The notes under the pieces: generated by a model
The model's database searches: none
What the model was told of the DNA's origin: nothing
What the model saw: only the letters and a program-made list of their open reading frames with translations
In this document: positions 3,283-14,015 of the stretch, one piece after another
Layout of the letters: the number at the start of each line of letters is the position of its first letter
Position numbering within the stretch: position 1 is the first letter of the stretch
Assembly: GCA_030696285.1 (NCBI GenBank)
Contig: JAUYSQ010000005.1
Location: forward strand, 1-34,008
DNA length: 34,008 bases
Direction: 5' to 3'
From: Sulfuricurvum sp.
GTDB lineage: Bacteria > Campylobacterota > Campylobacteria > Campylobacterales > Sulfurimonadaceae
Translations under genes and position numbers: made by a program

Positions 3283-4068
3283 TCACCCAAATTTCCCTGT
3301 AATATATTCTTGCGTAAGTTTTTCTTTCGGGGTAACAAAGAGTTCTTCGGTTTGCCCTAGCTCAATAAGTTCACCCAAATACATAAATCCGGTGTAATCG
3401 CTCACGCGCGCGGCTTGTTGCATGTTATGGGTTACGATAATGATAGAAACACGTTCTTTGAGTTCGATAACGAGTTTTTCAATCCCTTGAGTCGAGATGG
3501 GATCGAGTGCCGAAGTGGGTTCATCAAACAGTAATACTTCAGGTTCTACAGCAATGGCGCGGGCGATACACAAGCGTTGTTGCTGACCTCCTGAGAGACC
3601 GTTAGCATCTTGTTTAAGACGATCACTGACTTCTTTCCAAATGGCAGCGTCTTTGAGTGCTTTTTCGACACGGTCGTTTAGTTCGGTTTTGTTTTTAATC
3701 CCCTGAAGACGCATACCATAGGCAACATTATCGTAAATTGACATCGGAAACGCCGTCGGTTTTTGAAAAATCATTCCGATTTTAGTACGCAAGTGAATCA
3801 AATCTTCTTTTGGGGTGAGAATATTACGCCCCTCAAATTCGATTTCCCCCGCATAGGTATTACCCGGATACAGATCATGCATACGATTAAATGCACGCAA
3901 AAGCGTCGTTTTACCACATCCTGAGGGGCCGATAAGTGCCGTGATAGAATGCTTAGCGATGGGCATCGTCACTTTTTTCAAGCTTGGCTCAGAAGCACCT
4001 TTGTAGGTGAATTCAAAATCTCGTACGTGAAGTGCGCATTCTTCTTTAATGTCAATGATGCTTGCCAT
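3283..4068 (-). CDS. pstB: Phosphate ABC transporter ATP-binding protein
   Basis: PstB hydrolyses ATP to drive high-affinity phosphate import through the PstCA pore. The 261-aa protein has every ABC ATPase motif in order: Walker [10 protein letters not shown] (residues 47-55), Q-loop Q102 in [12 protein letters not shown], signature LSGGQQQR (158-165), Walker B LLFDEP (179-184) and the H-loop in [26 protein letters not shown] is typical of PstB as opposed to other importers. It is the last gene of the minus-strand pho/pst cluster, with 3 bp between it and pstA, and it converges on queF. Confidence 0.97.
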
Positions 4069-4071
4069 GTT

Positions 4072-4917
4072 TTATTTCCCTTTTTTTCCGGCGAATAAGA
4101 TGATTCGCCCTAATATATTTAAACCCAAAATGAACATAGAGAGGATGAAGGCGGCTGCCCATCCCAGTTGTTGCCAATCCTCATACGGACTGATAGCGTA
4201 ATTAAAAATTGTCACCGTTAGCGATGGCATTGCCGCGTTTAGATCGGTGGTGAAAAAATTGTCGTTAAATGAGGTGAACAGCAAGGGTGCTGTTTCTCCG
4301 CCTACGCGGGCAATCCCCAGCAGTACGCCTGTCAAAATTCCAGCTTTAGCGCCACGATAAACGACATCTTTAATAACCTTATATTTCGGAGCTCCCAGCG
4401 CAAATGCGGCTTCACGAAGCGTCCCGGGTACCAGTTGGAGCATATCATCGGTGGTGCGCAAGATGATAGGGATCATAATGATGGCTAATGCAATTGCCCC
4501 TGCCCACGCGCTGAAATGTCCCATCGGCATAACGATGACGGCATACACAAACGCTCCAATAACGATAGAGGGTGCTGACATCATAATATCGCTGATGTCG
4601 CGGATGGTATGTGCAAGGCGGGAGTTTTTACCGTATTCGCTCAAATACGTGCCCGCTAAAATCCCCAACGGAACACCAATCCCCGTTGCTAATCCGACTA
4701 AAATGAGTTGACCGACTAAAGCGTGCTTGAGACCACTCTCGATGTATCCCGGAGGGGCACCCTCGAAGATGAAGATATTCCAGTTGAGCGCACTCATCCC
4801 TTTCATCACCAAAACACCCAAAATCCAAAATAAAAAGGCCAGGGCAATGACAGCGCTAAGAGTTGAAAAACCCAAGGCAATACGGTTAACCATAATTCGT
4901 TTTTGTACGGCGGTCAT
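4072..4917 (-). CDS. pstA: Phosphate ABC transporter permease
   Basis: PstA forms half of the inner-membrane channel of the phosphate importer. The 281-aa sequence shows about six hydrophobic segments. The cytoplasmic coupling loop ALGAPKYKVIKDVVYRGAKA contacts the ATPase, followed by the family segment VGGETAPLLFT. The N-terminus carries one long transmembrane helix (about residues 13-37). Its start codon shares one base with the pstC stop (TAATG), and AGGAG lies 6 nt before the ATG, so it is translated in tandem with pstC. The length is normal for PstA. Confidence 0.96.
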   Translation of the reverse strand: MTAVQKRIMVNRIALGFSTLSAVIALAFLFWILGVLVMKGMSALNWNIFIFEGAPPGYIESGLKHALVGQLILVGLATGIGVPLGILAGTYLSEYGKNSRLAHTIRDISDIMMSAPSIVIGAFVYAVIVMPMGHFSAWAGAIALAIIMIPIILRTTDDMLQLVPGTLREAAFALGAPKYKVIKDVVYRGAKAGILTGVLLGIARVGGETAPLLFTSFNDNFFTTDLNAAMPSLTVTIFNYAISPYEDWQQLGWAAAFILSMFILGLNILGRIILFAGKKGK

Positions 4918-5765
4918 TATGCTCTCCTCGCTTTACGTAAAAAGTAAAATTTCGCAATAGCGATAACGACAAAACTCATAATGAGCAAGGTGAGGGCTAA
5001 ACCAAAAAGGCTTGAGAAATAGAGTGACGAATCCGCTTCGGTAAACTCGTTGGCAAGGGTAACTGGAATCGAGGTTGTCGGGTCAAGAATCGATCCGGGG
5101 ACATGGTGGACGTTCCCCATAACAAATGTGACTGCCATTGTCTCCCCGATCGCACGACCAAGCGCTAAGATAAGGGAACCGATGATTCCTGCTTTGGCGT
5201 AGGGGATGATAACGTCTTTGATAACGTCCCATTGGGTTCCGCCCAGCGCGTAGGCCGATTCTTTGAGAATATCAGGGGTGGTGTTCATCGCATCACGGGT
5301 AACTGCCGCCATAAACGGCAAAATCATAATCGCCAACACGATTCCCGCTGCGAGCAATCCGATCCCCATTCCTCCAAAAATATCACGGATGATGGGGACA
5401 AAATAAAACAATCCCCACATTCCATAAATGACCGAAGGGATAGCCGCGAGAAGTTCAACGCTGACGCCAAAAAAGCTTTTGACTTTATCGTGGGCAATTT
5501 CACTTAGGAATATTGCGACGCCTATGGCGATAGGTACAGCGAGAAGCATGGCTAAAAAAGTAGAGATGACCGAACCTAAAATAGCAGCTTGTGCTCCAAA
5601 TTTATCGAGATTCGGTGCCCATTCATCTTTGGTAATGAAATCCAGACCAAATGCGTTCATCGCTTCGAGTGAGTGGTTGAACAGCACCACAAAAATCCAT
5701 GCCACAATAACGAGGATTAAGAGGGCGCTGAATCGCGTGAAGTTGAAAAATATTTTATCGATCAT
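4917..5765 (-). CDS. pstC: Phosphate ABC transporter permease
   Basis: PstC is the second permease of the PstSCAB importer. The 282-aa protein has about six transmembrane segments, with the coupling loop YALGGTQWDVIKDVIIPYAKA and the family motif GRAIGETMAVTFVMGN. GSVISTFLAMLLAVPIAIGVAIFLSEIA near residues 64-90 is typical of the first conserved block. A 46-bp gap separates it from the upstream CCA-enzyme gene, and a Pho-box-like promoter overlaps the end of that gene. Its ribosome-binding site AAGG lies inside a perfect 12-bp palindrome directly before the ATG. Confidence 0.96.
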   Translation of the reverse strand: MIDKIFFNFTRFSALLILVIVAWIFVVLFNHSLEAMNAFGLDFITKDEWAPNLDKFGAQAAILGSVISTFLAMLLAVPIAIGVAIFLSEIAHDKVKSFFGVSVELLAAIPSVIYGMWGLFYFVPIIRDIFGGMGIGLLAAGIVLAIMILPFMAAVTRDAMNTTPDILKESAYALGGTQWDVIKDVIIPYAKAGIIGSLILALGRAIGETMAVTFVMGNVHHVPGSILDPTTSIPVTLANEFTEADSSLYFSSLFGLALTLLIMSFVVIAIAKFYFLRKARRA

Positions 5766-5793: not shown

Positions 5794-5827
5794 ATTGTAA
5801 TATAATTTCGATTACAAAGTTATTACT
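5794..5827 (-). promoter_or_regulatory. Predicted Pho-box promoter for pstCAB, overlapping the 3' end of the CCA-enzyme gene
   Basis: Reading the minus strand: AGTAAT (5827-5822), 5 bp, TGTAAT (5816-5811), 11 bp, TACAAT (5799-5794). The 11-bp half-site period and the 11-bp gap to the -10 box match the pstS and phoU promoters exactly. The stop codon of the upstream gene (5814-5812) lies inside the second half-site. Transcription would start near 5787, about 22 nt before the pstC ATG. Binding by the PhoB-type regulator encoded at 8597-9271 is inference. Confidence 0.65.
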
Positions 5828-7197
5828 AAATCTCTTTTTAACCATTGAATTGCCTCTTGCCTAGTAAAAAATTGCTGATTGAGCTGTGCTTCGTAAGCGG
5901 TATCTAAAATATTTTTAAATTGCTGGGAGGGGATTAGTCCCAGGGTTATCAAATCTCGTCCCATTAGCAAAGGCTTGGGAGGGGAGTGTAGAACACCCAG
6001 CTTTTTTGCGTGAGAATATAGCCATTCCCCTGCCTCAAAATGTTCGGGACGACTCTCGTCAAACGCTCTCCCAAAAAAATCAGCGCGAGCAACGAGAACC
6101 AAATTTTCGATCGATACGTGAGTGCTTAGGCGTAAAATGTCACTATCGCTTGATTGGTTACGATAAAGTTTGCGTGGAGTTCCATGATACGCGATCAGCG
6201 GTAAAACGGCGTTAATGAGAAATTTGTCCTCTGTGATACGCCAAAGCCATGATCGGGCGATGTCAACGCCTGCGTGCGCGTGACGAGGAGCATTTAAAAG
6301 AGCATCTTCCATCACAGTTGTGGAGGGTTTGCCAATGTCGTGCAATAACACGGCTAACATAAGAGGGCAATCGCGTTTGGCATCACCGGTGCGCATTCCA
6401 GCCATAGAATCGAGCGCCATCATCGTGTGGGTCCAAACAGAACCCTCTGGATGAGAGGTGGGGTCTTGGGGAGTGATTTCGAGCTGATCGAGTGGAGTAA
6501 AAAAAGATAATCCTCCCATCTGTCTGAGAAGTTCAAATCCGATTGAGGGTTTAGGTGAGAGAAGCAAGAGTTTTTTGAGCTCTTCAAAAATGCGTTCTTT
6601 CGGGAGTTCGGAGAGGGCACTGTTTTCAATCATGACACGGCATAAGCGCAGAAGATTTTCGTCGCATACCAAATCATATCGGGCAGCAAATTGTACGGCA
6701 CGTAATACCCTTAGAGGATCTTCCACAAACGTCTTTTCATCGACACAGGCAAGTTTTTTGCACCGCAAATCCTCTAATCCGTTATAAGGATCCAATACCA
6801 TTTTGGTTTGCGGGTTATAGCCCATGGCATTGATCGTAAAATCGCGCCGCCGCGCCGCCGTAGTAAAATCGAGGGTGAAGTCACAACGGATATCGAACCC
6901 TTTGTGCCCTGCACCTTGTTTGGATTCAGTGCGAGGGGGTGAAAAATCAATTTCCAGTTCTTTTATCTTAAGTTTTATGACTCCAAAGCTTTTACCTACA
7001 AGATTGAGCTTGCCAAAGGGTTTTAGTATCTTCTCAATCTCTTCGAGGGATTGCATGTTGTAAAGCTCAATATCGATATCTTTTGAATTTGTTCCCAGCA
7101 GTGCATCACGGACATATCCCCCTACCACTATGGGAGTGATTTGATGAGCCTGTAACGATTCGAGGATTGGATGAAGAGCGGGAGGGAGCGAGATCAT
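5812..7197 (-). CDS. cca: CCA tRNA nucleotidyltransferase / poly(A) polymerase family protein with HD domain
   Basis: This enzyme is expected to build or repair the 3' CCA of tRNAs. The 461-aa protein begins with the nucleotidyltransferase domain: GGYVRDALLG (residues 26-35), the catalytic pair D40/D42 in KDIDIEL, then RRRDFTINAMGY (116-127) and DPLRVLRAVQFAARYDL (160-176), the class II tRNA-binding and base-selecting region. An HD domain follows, with H257 and LLHDIGK (H286, D287), suggesting added phosphohydrolase activity. A bacterial poly(A) polymerase is possible, since the families are hard to separate, but the HD domain favours a Cca-type enzyme. Its ATG overlaps the kinase stop by 4 bp, so it sits inside the phosphate regulatory operon, an unexpected location. 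Confidence 0.9.
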   Translation of the reverse strand: MISLPPALHPILESLQAHQITPIVVGGYVRDALLGTNSKDIDIELYNMQSLEEIEKILKPFGKLNLVGKSFGVIKLKIKELEIDFSPPRTESKQGAGHKGFDIRCDFTLDFTTAARRRDFTINAMGYNPQTKMVLDPYNGLEDLRCKKLACVDEKTFVEDPLRVLRAVQFAARYDLVCDENLLRLCRVMIENSALSELPKERIFEELKKLLLLSPKPSIGFELLRQMGGLSFFTPLDQLEITPQDPTSHPEGSVWTHTMMALDSMAGMRTGDAKRDCPLMLAVLLHDIGKPSTTVMEDALLNAPRHAHAGVDIARSWLWRITEDKFLINAVLPLIAYHGTPRKLYRNQSSDSDILRLSTHVSIENLVLVARADFFGRAFDESRPEHFEAGEWLYSHAKKLGVLHSPPKPLLMGRDLITLGLIPSQQFKNILDTAYEAQLNQQFFTRQEAIQWLKRDLVITL

Positions 7198-8603
7198 TTG
7201 GGGGGTATTTTTTTGGATACGAGGGTGTCAAGTCCAAAACTAAAAGTGGAGCCGATACCCAAAGTGCTCTCAATTCGCAGTAGTGTATCGTGAAGTTTGA
7301 GAATGTAGCTGACGATGGCAAGGCCTAATCCCATCGAGTTGTCCCAGCTGTTTTTTTGAACACGGTAAAACTTATTACTAATGAGTTCCAGTTCCGAGGG
7401 GGCAATGCCGATCCCTTTGTCGGTAACTTCTATCGTATGATCGGTGAGCTTGAGGGTGACTATATCCTCAGAATATTTAATTGCATTGTCTATGAGGTTG
7501 GTGATGACAAGATCCAGCATGGTTTTATCCGCGTAGACTTCTTTGGAATATCCCTCATAGCTAATAACGCGAAGGGGATATTTTCCCTGAAGTGTAGAGG
7601 TGACATCGCGACACAGAGTGTCGAGATCAAAGGTGGTGGGCTTGATAGAGAGATCGTTATTTTCGAGTTTAACAGAGAGGGAGAGCCGGTCTAGCATCGT
7701 ACTGATTTTAAGGGCGTTGGAGTGTATTTTGCCCAAAAATTTTTCTCGTATGGCAAGGTTGAGATTGGGATCTTCTTCGAGTGTTTCGGTGTATCCGACG
7801 ATGGCGGCGACAGGGTTTTTAAATTCATGGCTGATGGCAGAGAGAATGTCATTTTGCTGTTTGTTGATGAGACGAAGTCTTGCTGTGTATTTGCGCTTTT
7901 GTTTATCGCGGTTTCGTAGTTTTTTGACGAGATTTTTGAGAAGGAGGGTAATTTGTAAAAACTCTCTAAAATGTTCGGGTTTTAAGACGGCCATATAATT
8001 TTTCGCCGATATTTCGTGCAGATAATAGGTGATTTGAGCAATATCGTACTGCACTTTTTTGGAGATTTTAAATGCAAGGATGAGGGCTATAACGATAAAT
8101 AAAGCAAATGATGCTGCGAGCGTGATCCAGAGTTGATAAAAATATCCCATAACGCTGTGAAGTGTTACCCCAAGGCGGAGAATGACAATATCTCCATGAA
8201 AAGCAATTTGTTTGGCAACAAAAATATAATCCTCATCGAAGCTGGCAGAATAGCGTACCTCTACTCCGTAAGGCTCTGTTGCCGCATTCATGATCTCTTC
8301 ACGATTGCGCATGGAGTCAATGGAACGCTTGTCAATATTACTCTCGGCGAGGACTTTTCCGTCAATATCGAACAAGGTGGCCCGATAATCGGTTTGATTG
8401 TGTACGGCATTGACATAATGATCTACATTTAGCGATTGATTGGAACGTGTGGCAACCAGCTCCAATGTTCGTTTAAGGTGATTGATATTGTCGTTGACAA
8501 TCATCTCTTTGAGGGTGTAATAACCAATAAAAGAGGCGATAGCGAGGGTTCCAATAAAAAGAGCCAGTGTGTTTAGAAAAAAAAGCTGATGAATTTTTAA
8601 CAC
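7194..8603 (-). CDS. Sensor histidine kinase, PhoR-like
   Basis: This is the predicted membrane sensor of the phosphate two-component system. The 469-aa protein has two transmembrane helices (about 8-30 and 158-180) flanking a periplasmic domain of about 125 residues, then a linker or possible coiled coil (about 220-250). The phospho-acceptor is H259 in ISHEFKNPVAAIVGYTE. The ATPase domain has the N-box NLIDNAIKYS, G1 DKGIGIAP and G2 MGLGLAIV. No PAS domain is evident, unlike enteric PhoR. Its start overlaps the end of the response-regulator gene by 7 bp and its end overlaps cca by 4 bp. The phosphate role is inferred from flanking phoU and pst genes. Campylobacter PhosS is the likely functional counterpart. 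Confidence 0.88.
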   Translation of the reverse strand: MLKIHQLFFLNTLALFIGTLAIASFIGYYTLKEMIVNDNINHLKRTLELVATRSNQSLNVDHYVNAVHNQTDYRATLFDIDGKVLAESNIDKRSIDSMRNREEIMNAATEPYGVEVRYSASFDEDYIFVAKQIAFHGDIVILRLGVTLHSVMGYFYQLWITLAASFALFIVIALILAFKISKKVQYDIAQITYYLHEISAKNYMAVLKPEHFREFLQITLLLKNLVKKLRNRDKQKRKYTARLRLINKQQNDILSAISHEFKNPVAAIVGYTETLEEDPNLNLAIREKFLGKIHSNALKISTMLDRLSLSVKLENNDLSIKPTTFDLDTLCRDVTSTLQGKYPLRVISYEGYSKEVYADKTMLDLVITNLIDNAIKYSEDIVTLKLTDHTIEVTDKGIGIAPSELELISNKFYRVQKNSWDNSMGLGLAIVSYILKLHDTLLRIESTLGIGSTFSFGLDTLVSKKIPPK

Positions 8604-9271
8604 AGGGTGTATCCGACTCCCCTCACCGTTTTGATGTACTCCTTGCTTTTATCCGGATCGATTTTCTCTTTTAGGCGGTTGATCGCAACATTTACCGTGC
8701 GGTCTTGATATACTTCATCGCTTCCCCATACGTGTTCGAGGAGATACTCACGGTCTAATACAATATTTTGATTACTGATGAGCGCGTACAATAAATCAAA
8801 CTCGAGTTTGGTGAGTTCTATGAGGCTATTTTCAATCATGAGGGTGCGGGATGCGAGGTTTAAGGTTATATCACGGTAGGTACTATTCCCCTCATTAGGC
8901 GATTTTTTGGTGCGGCGCAAAATGGCTTTTACGCGTAAAATGAGTTCTTTCATACTGAAAGGTTTGGTGAGATAATCATCCCCGCCTCGCTCAAAACCCT
9001 GCTCGATATCTTCGTCTTTGTCTTTGGCACTGATAAAAATGACGGGAATATTGATCCCCTGACGTCGTAAGGAGGCGATGTATTCGCTTCCCTCAGTCCC
9101 AGGGAGATTACGATCCATTAAAATCAGATCAACGTTTTCTTCGGAGAGCACTTCGTGCACGCGCTTAGTGTTGAGAAAACCAATCGTTTCAAACCCTTCG
9201 CGTCCGAGATTGAATTCCATCAGTTCTAAAATATCTTCTTCATCCTCGACGATGAGTATGAGCGCATTCAT
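8597..9271 (-). CDS. Response regulator, OmpR/PhoB family (phosphate regulon)
   Basis: The 224-aa protein has a receiver domain followed by a winged-helix DNA-binding domain. The receiver has the acidic pair in VEDEED, phospho-acceptor D53 in LILMDRNLPG, S81 and K103 in YLTKPFS. The output domain contains LTKLEFDLLYALISN and the recognition-helix stretch DRTVNVAINRLKEKI, ending VRGVGYTLC as in OmpR/PhoB proteins. It lies 11 bp after phoU and overlaps the kinase gene. Family members bind tandem direct repeats with an 11-bp period, which fits the half-site pairs found at four promoters in this window. Counterparts are PhoB of enterics and PhosR of Campylobacter. Confidence 0.93.
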   Translation of the reverse strand: MNALILIVEDEEDILELMEFNLGREGFETIGFLNTKRVHEVLSEENVDLILMDRNLPGTEGSEYIASLRRQGINIPVIFISAKDKDEDIEQGFERGGDDYLTKPFSMKELILRVKAILRRTKKSPNEGNSTYRDITLNLASRTLMIENSLIELTKLEFDLLYALISNQNIVLDREYLLEHVWGSDEVYQDRTVNVAINRLKEKIDPDKSKEYIKTVRGVGYTLC

Positions 9272-9282
9272 AAAAAAGGCCC

Positions 9283-9954
9283 TTACGAGTGATAGTTTAA
9301 TTCGCCGCCTTGTTGGGCGTACAAAAGAAGGGCAGCGATGTTGACGGTTCGATCCCCTGTTCTCTCCAGCTTACGGAGTGTTGCAAGTACTCTAACGTAA
9401 TCAGCAGAGAGTTCATGTGATTCGACAATGAGATTGAGGAGATCTTTTTCGATGATAGAAAAGAGGTCATCGTTCTTGGACTCTTCAACGGATACTTTGC
9501 GAAACAGCTCTTCGGCATCCGAAGTGTTCATATTTTCCAAATACTCATGGATGTATTGCAATGCATTGAGTGTTGTTTTTTGCAGCTGAATGATAGAAGA
9601 GGTCATAGGAGTAATATCGCATTCTCCGGCGCAAAGGTCTTGGAGTCTGGTAGTATATTTTTTCATATTCTCACCGATACGGTCAAGCTCGTTGGTCATT
9701 TTTAAAAAGGCAACGAGAAGTCGTAGTTCTTCAGCCTCAGGACCGTAGAGGGCGAGTGTTTTGATTACCTCGTTATCGATTGTGTTTGCCTCGGTTTGGA
9801 TGCTTTTGAGGTGTTTTTTAGCACTTTCGTAAAGGTCGTTCTGATTGTTTTCAAATGCAGTGAGCGTCTCTTCGTTGGCAAGGATGATAGAGGCAACTAG
9901 ACTAGAGAGCTGTGTTCGGATTTCGTTGAGTTTGTTTTCATAACGTGGTAGCAT
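9283..9954 (-). CDS. phoU: Phosphate signalling complex protein PhoU
   Basis: PhoU couples the state of the PstSCAB transporter to the sensor kinase and keeps the Pho response off when phosphate is plentiful. The 223-aa all-helical sequence begins MLPRYENKLNEIR and shows two repeated three-helix units. Each has the metal-binding-type signature of the family: ELDRIGENMKKYTTR (about 88-102) and KLERTGDRTVNIAALLLY (about 197-214). It is the first gene of the minus-strand cluster and has its own Pho-box-like promoter in the divergent gap with pstS. Confidence 0.93.
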   Translation of the reverse strand: MLPRYENKLNEIRTQLSSLVASIILANEETLTAFENNQNDLYESAKKHLKSIQTEANTIDNEVIKTLALYGPEAEELRLLVAFLKMTNELDRIGENMKKYTTRLQDLCAGECDITPMTSSIIQLQKTTLNALQYIHEYLENMNTSDAEELFRKVSVEESKNDDLFSIIEKDLLNLIVESHELSADYVRVLATLRKLERTGDRTVNIAALLLYAQQGGELNYHS

Positions 9955-9988: not shown

Positions 9989-10022
9989 ATTGTAATCTAA
10001 GTATCGTCACAATTTGATTACA
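9989..10022 (-). promoter_or_regulatory. Predicted Pho-box promoter for phoU-regulator-kinase-cca
   Basis: Minus-strand reading: TGTAAT (10022-10017), 5 bp, TGTGAC (10011-10006), 11 bp, TACAAT (9994-9989). The half-sites start 11 bp apart, as expected for a tandem PhoB-family dimer, and the gap to the -10 box is the same as at pstS. Transcription would begin about 28 nt upstream of the phoU start. Confidence 0.7.
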
Positions 10023-10038
10023 ATAGTTTACCATACTC

Positions 10039-10072
10039 TGTAACCTTTTTGTTACCTACCCCCAAGTACAAT
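10039..10072 (+). promoter_or_regulatory. Predicted Pho-box promoter for pstS
   Basis: TGTAAC (10039-10044), 5 bp, TGTTAC (10050-10055), 11 bp, TACAAT (10067-10072). The layout is the mirror image of the divergent phoU promoter, 17 bp away. The start point would be near 10079, giving a leader of about 25 nt that holds AAGGA, 7 nt before the ATG at 10104. Confidence 0.75.
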
Positions 10073-10103: not shown

Positions 10104-11096
10104 ATGCTAAGAAAAGTTACTCAAGGTTTCGTGATTGCAGCTATTGCAGCTACGTCGATGATCGCAGCAGATAAAATCAATGGCGCAGGCGCAACCTTCC
10201 CGGCTCCTTGTTATTATGACTGGGCTTATAACTACCAAAAAGCGACCAAAACGCGTGTTAACTACCAATCAATCGGTTCAGGCGGCGGTATCAAGCAAGT
10301 TTCTGAGCGTATCGTTGATTTCGGTGCTACGGATGCTCCATTGACTCCAAAAGAGCTTGAAAAAGCAAATTTGAGCCAATTCCCGGCGGTTATCGGCTCT
10401 ATCGTTGTTGCGCATAACATCCCAGGTGTTGCAGACGAAAAATTGAAATTGAAAAACAGCGTAGTTGCTGACATCTTCGCGGGTAAAATCACAATGTGGA
10501 ATGACGCCGCAATCAAAGCAGACAACGCAGGGGTAAATCTTCCCGCTGAAAAAATTATTGTTGCTCACCGTTCAGACGGGTCAGGGACTACGTATGTATT
10601 TACTGACTATTTGAGCGAATCTTCTAAAATGTGGAAAAGCAAATTCGGTATCGGTAAAGCAATCGGATGGGCAACCGGCGTCGGCGGAAAAGGAAATGAG
10701 GGGGTAACCAACCTTATCAAACAAACTCCGTATTCTATCGGCTACATCGAAAACGCATACAAAGAGAAAAATAACCTTTCAGCAGCAACCTTGCAAACAG
10801 CAGAGGGCAAATGGGTTACGGCTACGCTTCCAAACTTCCAATTGGCAGTTAAACAAGCAAAATGGAGCAAAAAAGATCACTTTTATAGCTCATTGGTTAT
10901 GCAAGACGGATCGTATCCGATCGTAGCAGCAACGTTTATTTTATTGCCAAAAGACAAAGCGGAAGCCAATGCTGAAGTTATCAAATTCTTTGATCATTCA
11001 TTCCGTAATGGTGACAAAGCGGCTCAAAAATTGGGTTATATCCCATTGCCGGTTGAAACAACAAACATGGTACGTGAGTACTGGGCCGGTAAATAA
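10104..11096 (+). CDS. pstS: Phosphate ABC transporter periplasmic substrate-binding protein
   Basis: PstS captures inorganic phosphate in the periplasm and delivers it to PstCA. The 330-aa protein begins with a signal peptide (about residues 1-22, ending SMIAA). Family blocks follow: GAGATFPAPCYYDWAYNY, YQSIGSGGGIKQ, VDFGATDAPL, and HRSDGSGTTYVFTDYLS, which contributes phosphate ligands. VGGKGNEGVTNLIKQTPYSIGYIE follows, as in other PstS proteins. There is no lipobox cysteine at the cleavage site, so it should be soluble in the periplasm. It is transcribed divergently from the phoU-pstB cluster, not from within the pst operon. Confidence 0.96.
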   Translation: MLRKVTQGFVIAAIAATSMIAADKINGAGATFPAPCYYDWAYNYQKATKTRVNYQSIGSGGGIKQVSERIVDFGATDAPLTPKELEKANLSQFPAVIGSIVVAHNIPGVADEKLKLKNSVVADIFAGKITMWNDAAIKADNAGVNLPAEKIIVAHRSDGSGTTYVFTDYLSESSKMWKSKFGIGKAIGWATGVGGKGNEGVTNLIKQTPYSIGYIENAYKEKNNLSAATLQTAEGKWVTATLPNFQLAVKQAKWSKKDHFYSSLVMQDGSYPIVAATFILLPKDKAEANAEVIKFFDHSFRNGDKAAQKLGYIPLPVETTNMVREYWAGK

Positions 11097-11123: not shown

Positions 11124-11179
11124 CGTCATTCCCGCGAAGGCGGGAATCTAGCTGGATCCCCGCCTTCGCGGGGATGACG
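11124..11179. repeat. Palindromic intergenic repeat, family A copy 1
   Basis: The element runs from CGTCATTCCC to GGGATGACG. It contains two adjacent perfect hairpins, ATTCCCGC-GAAG-GCGGGAAT and ATCCCCGC-CTTC-GCGGGGAT, and is itself a near-palindrome. It lies 27 bp after the pstS stop and could end or stabilise the pstS transcript. Related halves recur at 12868, 17046, 31547 and 33808. Confidence 0.75.
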
Positions 11180-11344
11180 ATGTGGATAACGCTAAGCTCA
11201 CCTTGGTGATTTTAACGGTGTCTTTTTCATCGAAGGCCCACGTTTCATTTCTTCTTCCTTCTTTCTTAAAGCTTGATAGCCCGTTTTAGCGTATGCACTC
11301 GGGCCTCACCTGTTATTCTCTCGTTTTTTATTCATTCATCGTAT
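11180..11344. other. Gene-free part of the 328-bp pstS-porin gap
   Basis: Between the repeat and the Pho boxes I find no convincing gene. A short inverted repeat TCACCTTGGTGA followed by TTTT (near 11200) could be a weak terminator. GCCCG (11279-11283) and CGGGC (11300-11304) can pair across a 16-nt loop. Nothing else stands out. Confidence 0.4.
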
Positions 11345-11394
11345 CGTAACCCTTTTGTAACCGTAACATTGACGTAATCTTCTTTTTCTACAAT
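11345..11394 (+). promoter_or_regulatory. Predicted tandem double Pho box and -10 upstream of the porin
   Basis: There are two half-site pairs: CGTAAC (11345-11350) with TGTAAC (11356-11361), and CGTAAC (11362-11367) with CGTAAT (11373-11378). Each pair has the 11-bp period. TACAAT (11389-11394) follows after 10 bp. The doubled site suggests stronger or more graded control than at pstS. AGGAG (11411-11415) precedes the ATG at 11425. Confidence 0.7.
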
Positions 11395-11424: not shown

Positions 11425-12810
11425 ATGAAAAAAGTAACTTTATCTGCCCTTGCTGCGGTGATGTTGTCAGGTGTAGTGTATGCTGACACTATGACTCTCT
11501 TTAGTGACCCAAAAACAGGTCAAGTATTTACAACACCGGCTGAAGGTCGTGTAGAGATGGGCGATTTCGTTGATGCGAAAACGATTGATATGAATCAGCG
11601 TGAAGGTGAATCTGCTTTTTCTGACTACAAAGAAAATCAAAAAAAGTATGTCAACGTAAAATCAAAAGCAAAAACGCTTGAATTTAGCGGTACGCATTAC
11701 CTTGGCTATACATCAGCAAATCCTACTACAAAAAAAGATGTTACCAATGGAGATCAATCAAACTATGATGGCAGATCTGCAGGTTTTGAAATGCGTCGTA
11801 ACTATGTTCAAGTAAAAGCATTTATCAACGATAAAGACTATCTTCGTGTAACCATGGATTCAACGAAAGAATTGGCTTCATCTGTAGGTACTACGCAAGA
11901 TGGTAGTGATTTGAAAACGTCACAAGGCGGTGGCTATGCAGACGTATTTATCAAATACGCTTACCTCTATTTGGATAAAGTTCTTCCATATACTGGTGTA
12001 GAAGCGGGTATTGTACACCGTCCGTGGATTGACTATGAGGAACACAACTCATGGCATTACCGTTCATTCAATAAAGTTGTTCTAGAAGAAAAAGGGACTG
12101 CAACCGAATCGGGTGTTGACCTTGTGAACTCGGCTGATTTTGGTATTAATTTCCAAACGAAAACCGAACTATTCAGTTCTGAAATCGGTATTTTCAACGG
12201 TGAGGGATACCACGCAGATAAAATTGCTGGGAATCAACAAAACAGTTCTGATATGTCTTTGGAATGGCGTTTGACGGGTCACATTTTGGGTGATGGTACA
12301 AAAGTCGGTAAGAATGACCGTACTAAAGACACCTATTTGAATGTTTCCACTATGGGATTGATCTCTAAAAACCATAAAGATGACAATGCTACAATTGATG
12401 ATTCAAAAGAATACGATCGCACTTTCTATGGTGTTCATGCTGTATATAATCAACCGGAATTCTTGATTGCTGCGCAATATGTAAAGGCAGAAGATAAGTC
12501 TCAAAGTGCTACGCTTACAGATGGTAAAGAGTACGATGTTTGGTCAATCAATGGTGAAATTCGCCCAATAACCGATTGGACAATCATCGGACGTTATGAT
12601 GATTATAAAATCGATAAAGTTGCAAAAGTTACGGGTGCAACATCAACTTCTGTTGAAGGTACAAAATGGATCGCTGGTTTAGCGTATAAAATGAATAAAA
12701 ATGTGAGCTTTATCGGTTCTGGAAAATGGATTGATGAAAAAGGTGCAACAGGTTTTGATACTGGTGAATCCAAAGACGTTTACATGCTCACTACCGAAGT
12801 TAAATGGTAA
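11425..12810 (+). CDS. Outer-membrane porin, OprP/OprO-like (probable phosphate porin)
   Basis: The 461-aa protein has a 20-residue signal peptide (ending GVVYA). The mature part is rich in alternating hydrophobic/polar strands and aromatic residues, for example RRNYVQVKAFINDKDYLRVTM, DVFIKYAYLYLDKVLPYTGVE and WTIIGRYDDYKI. It ends in VYMLTTEVKW, an aromatic C-terminus as required for outer-membrane barrel assembly. The size fits a 16-strand trimeric porin. The segment AGIVHRPWIDYEEHNSWHYR resembles that of short-chain and phosphate-selective porins. The double Pho box and the pstS neighbour support phosphate uptake across the outer membrane as its role. Substrate specificity cannot be proved from the sequence. 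Confidence 0.85.
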   Translation: MKKVTLSALAAVMLSGVVYADTMTLFSDPKTGQVFTTPAEGRVEMGDFVDAKTIDMNQREGESAFSDYKENQKKYVNVKSKAKTLEFSGTHYLGYTSANPTTKKDVTNGDQSNYDGRSAGFEMRRNYVQVKAFINDKDYLRVTMDSTKELASSVGTTQDGSDLKTSQGGGYADVFIKYAYLYLDKVLPYTGVEAGIVHRPWIDYEEHNSWHYRSFNKVVLEEKGTATESGVDLVNSADFGINFQTKTELFSSEIGIFNGEGYHADKIAGNQQNSSDMSLEWRLTGHILGDGTKVGKNDRTKDTYLNVSTMGLISKNHKDDNATIDDSKEYDRTFYGVHAVYNQPEFLIAAQYVKAEDKSQSATLTDGKEYDVWSINGEIRPITDWTIIGRYDDYKIDKVAKVTGATSTSVEGTKWIAGLAYKMNKNVSFIGSGKWIDEKGATGFDTGESKDVYMLTTEVKW

Positions 12811-13924: not shown

Positions 13925-14015
13925 TAAAATCCTTTTATGTAAAAAGATATTGTAACGAAAAAACGGTTTAATATTTGAAGAAGTAGAGGGGTAAAAACTA
14001 TGAGACTAAAAAGTA

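Follow-up and report, generated by a model that had tools for sequence, protein, structure and literature searches.

Conserved predicted Pho boxes at the divergent phoU and pstS promoters of Sulfuricurvum and before a c-di-GMP gene

Results and discussion

The window, a stretch of 34,008 nucleotides from Sulfuricurvum sp., contains the divergent genes phoU and pstS, whose promoters carry repeats that are very probably real, conserved Pho boxes, as predicted from their sequence. With high confidence, we interpret these predicted boxes as sites at which the regulator encoded in the phoU operon would bind and activate transcription when phosphate is scarce. While such a Pho box is itself ordinary in kind, the proposed family-wide link to a c-di-GMP gene is unexpected. 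The regulon predicted in this way is compact, and its non-transport member is a c-di-GMP enzyme.

Locus and repeat pairs

The minus strand comprises pstB, pstA, pstC, a pcnB/CCA-enzyme-like gene, a histidine kinase, a PhoB-type regulator and phoU, while pstS and a porin-like gene are located on the plus strand (Table 1). The porin-like protein matched no Pfam or NCBIfam family, and its gene adjoins pstS in the relatives compared, throughout the genus. In nearly all same-genus loci the poly(A)-polymerase/CCA-enzyme-like gene was found 3' of the sensor kinase.

Table 1. Genes and predicted promoter elements of the window. Half-sites and -10 elements are given in the reading direction of the respective promoter.
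Feature	Position	Strand	Details
pstB	3283..4068	-	TIGR00972 over cut-off
pstA	4072..4917	-	TIGR00974 over cut-off
pstC	4917..5765	-	TIGR02138 over cut-off
pstCAB promoter	5794..5827	-	AGTAAT, 5 bp, TGTAAT, 11-bp spacer, -10 TACAAT
Poly(A)-polymerase/CCA-enzyme-like (pcnB-like), after the kinase	5812..7197	-	
Sensor histidine kinase	7194..8603	-	Pfam: only HisKA and HATPase_c, without PAS
PhoB/PhosR-type response regulator, presumably binding the boxes	8597..9271	-	Pfam/NCBIfam, alignment
phoU	9283..9954	-	Pfam PF01895; under NCBIfam PhoU equivalog cut-off
phoU-operon promoter	9989..10022	-	TGTAAT 10022-10017, 5 bp, TGTGAC 10011-10006, 11-bp spacer, -10 TACAAT 9994-9989
Stretch between the back-to-back boxes, 16 bp	10023..10038	.	
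pstS promoter	10039..10072	+	TGTAAC 10039-10044, 5 bp, TGTTAC 10050-10055, 11-bp spacer, -10 TACAAT 10067-10072
pstS	10104..11096	+	TIGR00975 over cut-off
Porin-like gene promoter	11345..11394	+	Four half-sites: CGTAAC 11345, TGTAAC 11356, CGTAAC 11362, CGTAAT 11373; 10-bp spacer, -10 TACAAT 11389-11394
Porin-like outer-membrane protein	11425..12810	+	Named by eye from sequence

The intergenic region between phoU and pstS comprises 149 bp, with 16 bp between the edges of the two boxes, and the distance from the -10 element to the ATG amounts to 34 bp for phoU and 31 bp for pstS. The half-sites, the spacings and the TACAAT element which the initial annotation had assigned to both promoters were recovered exactly, on opposite strands. 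The half-sites start 11 bp apart on the phoU and the pstS side alike, as had been claimed. In the window, the loose pair TGTNAYN5TGTNAY was found three times compared to 0.17 times expected from shuffles, and no shuffle reached three. Extended by an 11-bp spacer and TANNAT, this pattern matched at three places in the own genome (2.39 Mb), two of them being the phoU and pstS sites and the third lying before a histidine-kinase gene (C260:1419); the reversed control gave 0 matches in the same genome.

Core letters and comparison with known Pho boxes

The core had been described as TGTAAY, possibly specific for the lineage and unlike the enteric TGTCA. This description holds for the first half-sites, whereas the second half-sites of the pair (TGTGAC and TGTTAC) differ, so that the core has to be written as TGTNAY. 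Among 74 distinct same-genus sites, which were collected with a pattern, base 4 was A in 99% of the first half-sites. In the named loci, the pair was found upstream of pstS in 16 of 19 Campylobacterota and in 35 of 59 others, and base 4 of the pstS half-site was A or T in 34 of 34 cases from Campylobacterota and C in 64 of 80 cases elsewhere. A lineage-specific core can be maintained at the level of the order or phylum, but not at the level of the genus; TGTAAY also occurs outside the Campylobacterota, in a small number of loci from other phyla (L213, L219, L222).

None of the boxes of the window has the C that occupies base 4 of the enteric core (TGTCA). The contrast to TGTCA is correct in that base 4 is shifted, but was overstated, since the second repeat of E. 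coli already tolerates A: the E. coli Pho box reads CTGTCAT-A(AT)A(TA)-CTGT(CA)A(CT), its second half-site allowing TGT(C/A)A(C/T) (PMC3465305). Both systems share direct repeats with an 11-bp offset in front of pst as well as a PhoB-type regulator (PMC3465305, PMC4415409), and the 11-bp repeat is present in the E. coli phoA and pstS boxes, too (PMC3465305). In contrast to E. coli, base 4 is A, T or G instead of C, and the genes for phoU and the regulator form one operon that is divergent from pstS. For Campylobacterota with a free-living lifestyle, a Pho box that can be put to the test is thereby proposed, the core of which has drifted from TGTCA in a fixed geometry.

For Campylobacter jejuni, which belongs to the same order, the PhosR box reportedly reads GTTTCNAAAANGTTTC, with an 11-bp repeat as well and a core that differs from the boxes described here, a difference that counts against their reading as Pho boxes. 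No exact match to this consensus was found in the own genome, and its matches spread over many families at a near-control level, which makes them uninformative. The PhosS/PhosR system of C. jejuni exerts a phosphate-responsive two-component control of the pst genes and phoX (PMC3197622, PMC6250842).

Regulator and proposed mechanism

The PhoB-type regulator that had been noted next to the boxes was found in the phoU operon. It comprises a receiver and a winged-helix domain and showed its best match to the NCBIfam PhoB model, yet under the cut-off of this model; its identity to E. coli PhoB is 38%. Thr194, Val197, Arg201 and Arg219, the base contacts of PhoB, of which the first three touch G and T bases (PMC3973317), are retained. 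Departures from PhoB were observed at positions 196 (D to N), 198 (H to A) and 200 (R to N), and we infer that these changes may explain the shift at base 4.

Since tandem half-sites are common to the whole OmpR family (PMC4415409, PMC3973317) and the ligand is assigned here from sequence, the boxes could also be addressed by another member of this family encoded in the own genome. This is improbable, because the phoU operon includes a PhoB-like regulator in every genus locus compared, and the one encoded here retains the PhoB contact residues.

With the regulator of the phoU operon as the ligand, each box would consist of two head-to-tail half-sites, 11 bp apart, and would be located 10-11 bp upstream of the -10 element, at the usual place of the -35 box. 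Under phosphate scarcity, the kinase would phosphorylate the regulator, which would then dimerise, bind to the box and recruit the sigma-70 polymerase. In the window, the phoU-regulator-kinase-(pcnB) operon, pstS, pstCAB and the adjoining porin-like gene would be turned on together. Counting against this mechanism, the equivalent of PhoB Glu191, which is part of the sigma-contacting acidic patch (PMC3973317), is Gln in the regulator and in all 12 regulators aligned. Furthermore, PhoB promoters are said to need a strict spacing (PMC10294691), and three of the four promoters described here have spacers of 11 bp.

Conservation and spacing within the genus

The initial annotation had named missing box pairs in close relatives as evidence against the boxes. 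Among 30 Sulfuricurvum loci, the window's own locus included, the divergent arrangement of phoU and pstS was kept in all 30, and both boxes together with the -10 element were present in all 30 as well. In L014, the second half-site of pstS reads GGTTAC; it lies outside the first regular expression and was counted as present. The pairwise identity across these loci was 74-98% for the half-sites and the -10 elements, 35-41% for the spacers between box and -10 element, and about 50% for the leaders, with the caveats that patterns served to set the limits of the sites and that the species do not count as independent. Since the half-site, -10 and spacer columns share one tree, this contrast serves as an internal control.

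The claim of an identical geometry is true for the window, where the gap between box and -10 element amounts to 11 bp on both sides, but this is a local form, as most relatives show 10 bp. Among the 29 other loci, the gap was invariably 10 bp on the phoU side, and on the pstS side only L006, L010, L012 and L013 departed from this length (11 bp). At the phoU and pstS promoters of 30 of 30 loci, the box takes the place of the -35 box, at a near-fixed distance of 10-11 bp from the -10 element.

These distances also bear on the possibility that the sites are ordinary sigma-70 promoters, in which TTGTAA would act as the -35 box and the second repeat would be incidental. TTGTAA resembles TTGACA, and a -10-like element (TACAAT or TATAAT) follows; however, the first and the second half-site lie 21 and 10 bp, respectively, from the -10 element in most relatives, neither near 17 bp, conservation extends to both half-sites but not to the spacer, and the matches cluster at phosphate genes. 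Since no half-site is located 16-18 bp from the -10 element, a plain sigma-70 -35 box does not describe the sites, and this explanation is very unlikely.

The 16-bp stretch between the back-to-back boxes is identical in 13 close relatives despite their diverged spacers between box and -10 element, and varies freely in the other 17 loci.

Further promoters of the window

The number of promoters given in the initial annotation was too low, since the window has four Pho-box promoters and those of pstC and the porin-like gene had been missed. Both were located by a scan allowing two mismatches and by a model derived from 49 sites, based only on sequence. In front of the porin-like gene, the proximal pair with its -10 element (CGTAAC-5-CGTAAT-10-TACAAT) was matched by pattern in 24 of 27 upstream regions read. 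The second half-site of this pair is GGTAAY in L056 and L064, and a similar site with AGTAAC was found in L068, which belongs to another genus of the order. The two pairs of porin half-sites start 17 bp apart in the window and 15 bp apart in many relatives; as this offset is not a multiple of 11, a simultaneous binding of both pairs may fail.

The pstCAB promoter overlaps the end of the pcnB-like gene, the stop codon of which lies inside the pstC Pho box. Comparable pstC sites were seen by eye in the same-genus upstream regions shown. They include L104 and L107, in which a pcnB-like gene is either lacking or located at a greater distance, and a coding constraint does not explain the sites for this reason.

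That the repeats form an inverted-repeat operator of a symmetric dimeric regulator, as the perfect palindrome GTAAC-N6-GTTAC of the pstS box in the window and the GTAAC...GTTAC of other boxes in the genus would allow, is hardly credible, since the second halves at the porin, pstC and phoU promoters and at the EAL-domain gene described below (GTAAY, GTGAY or GTTAT) are direct and non-palindromic and only the direct-repeat reading fits all promoters.

Between pstS and the porin-like gene, a GC-rich, palindromic repeat-like stretch (TTCCCGCGAAGGCGGGAATC ... CCCCGCCTTCGCGGGG) was observed at positions 11125-11180.

Genome, genus and order scans

A matrix scan, as suggested in the initial annotation, gave the porin promoter as the best match of the own genome; the other top matches were pstS, one further site, phoU, the EAL-domain gene, pstC and ppk1, and across 41 genomes the best matches fall in the pst locus. 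The fixed pattern TGTAAY, 5 bp, NGTNAY, 10 bp, TAYANT matched 157 times, with matches in 40 of the 41 genomes of the genus, compared to 1 match of the reversed control over the 41 genomes; both sums were made by hand from a table. Because of its 11-bp gaps and half-sites starting with C, the own genome showed no match to this pattern. Within the order, 134 of 299 genomes were matched, matches being absent throughout family f14 and in almost every genome of f11, and the box layout was found before pstS, phoU or pstC in other families. A scan with three mismatches was noisy (14 matches compared to 11 in the control).

The ppk1 sites (L084, L134-L136) hold a single half-site, and the site in C213 lies next to a gene whose product has a twin-arginine-like signal and matched no Pfam family. 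A further matrix match in the window, at position 13938, was rejected as a poor box on inspection. In a few genomes, box-like matches were observed before a phosphate-permease-like protein, which was named by eye from its sequence (L131, L137). A box-like match also precedes a cytochrome-c-peroxidase-like gene in L109, with a near-identical site in L110.

An EAL-CBS-GGDEF gene behind the same predicted box

In the genus-wide model scan, a box directly before an EAL-CBS-GGDEF gene (domains according to Pfam) was recurrent. In L144 (1501-3258; G000:C228), the gene has its ATG 6 bp past the -10 element, and orthologs occur in most genomes of the genus. Thirty upstream regions were read, of which 29 were readable, as L147 is cut by a contig end. 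The pattern [N]GTAAY-5-NGTNAY-10-TATANT was exact in 24 of these 29 orthologs, while in the other five (L152, L153, L163, L164, L167) the second half-site is TGCGAC, TGAAAT or TGCAAT and the layout is preserved as judged by eye.

For 20 orthologs of sister genera (about 47% identity) the strict pattern gave 0 matches, and 17 of the 20 showed the first half-site, 5 bp, [TA]G[AC]AAY, 10 bp and TAnnnT. This relaxed pattern was found 0 times in 300 dinucleotide shuffles, a result that overstates its strength, since the pattern was written after viewing the same sequences. In these 17 orthologs, the second half-site has drifted to TG[A/C]AAY, and the site is regarded as a candidate box.

The start codon of the EAL gene lies 6-7 bp past the -10 element in orthologs of the genus, compared to 5-6 bp in those of the sister genera. 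Since this is approximately the expected transcription start, the mRNA is probably leaderless. In the protein sequence, the EAL motif is present and the usual catalytic residues were recognised by eye, GGDEF being replaced by GGDDF; the enzyme probably breaks down c-di-GMP. As the gene is preceded by the same box, phosphate starvation probably lowers c-di-GMP, too. We consider it fairly likely that throughout the family, probably Sulfurimonadaceae, the regulator directly controls this gene via a Pho box and a leaderless mRNA, and that phosphate shortage leads to a loss of c-di-GMP.

In Pseudomonas fluorescens, a PhoB-controlled Pho box drives the c-di-GMP phosphodiesterase RapA under phosphate starvation (PMC3032545). 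The regulatory logic of a Pho box before a c-di-GMP gene is shared with this system, whereas the lineage is a different one and the gene here encodes an EAL-CBS-GGDEF protein with its ATG 5-7 bp past the -10 element. Given this parallel, the link between phosphate and c-di-GMP could reflect either an independent evolution or an older connection.

In L113, L126 and L141, a divergently oriented gene (about 240 amino acids) with its own box-like site lies opposite the EAL box.
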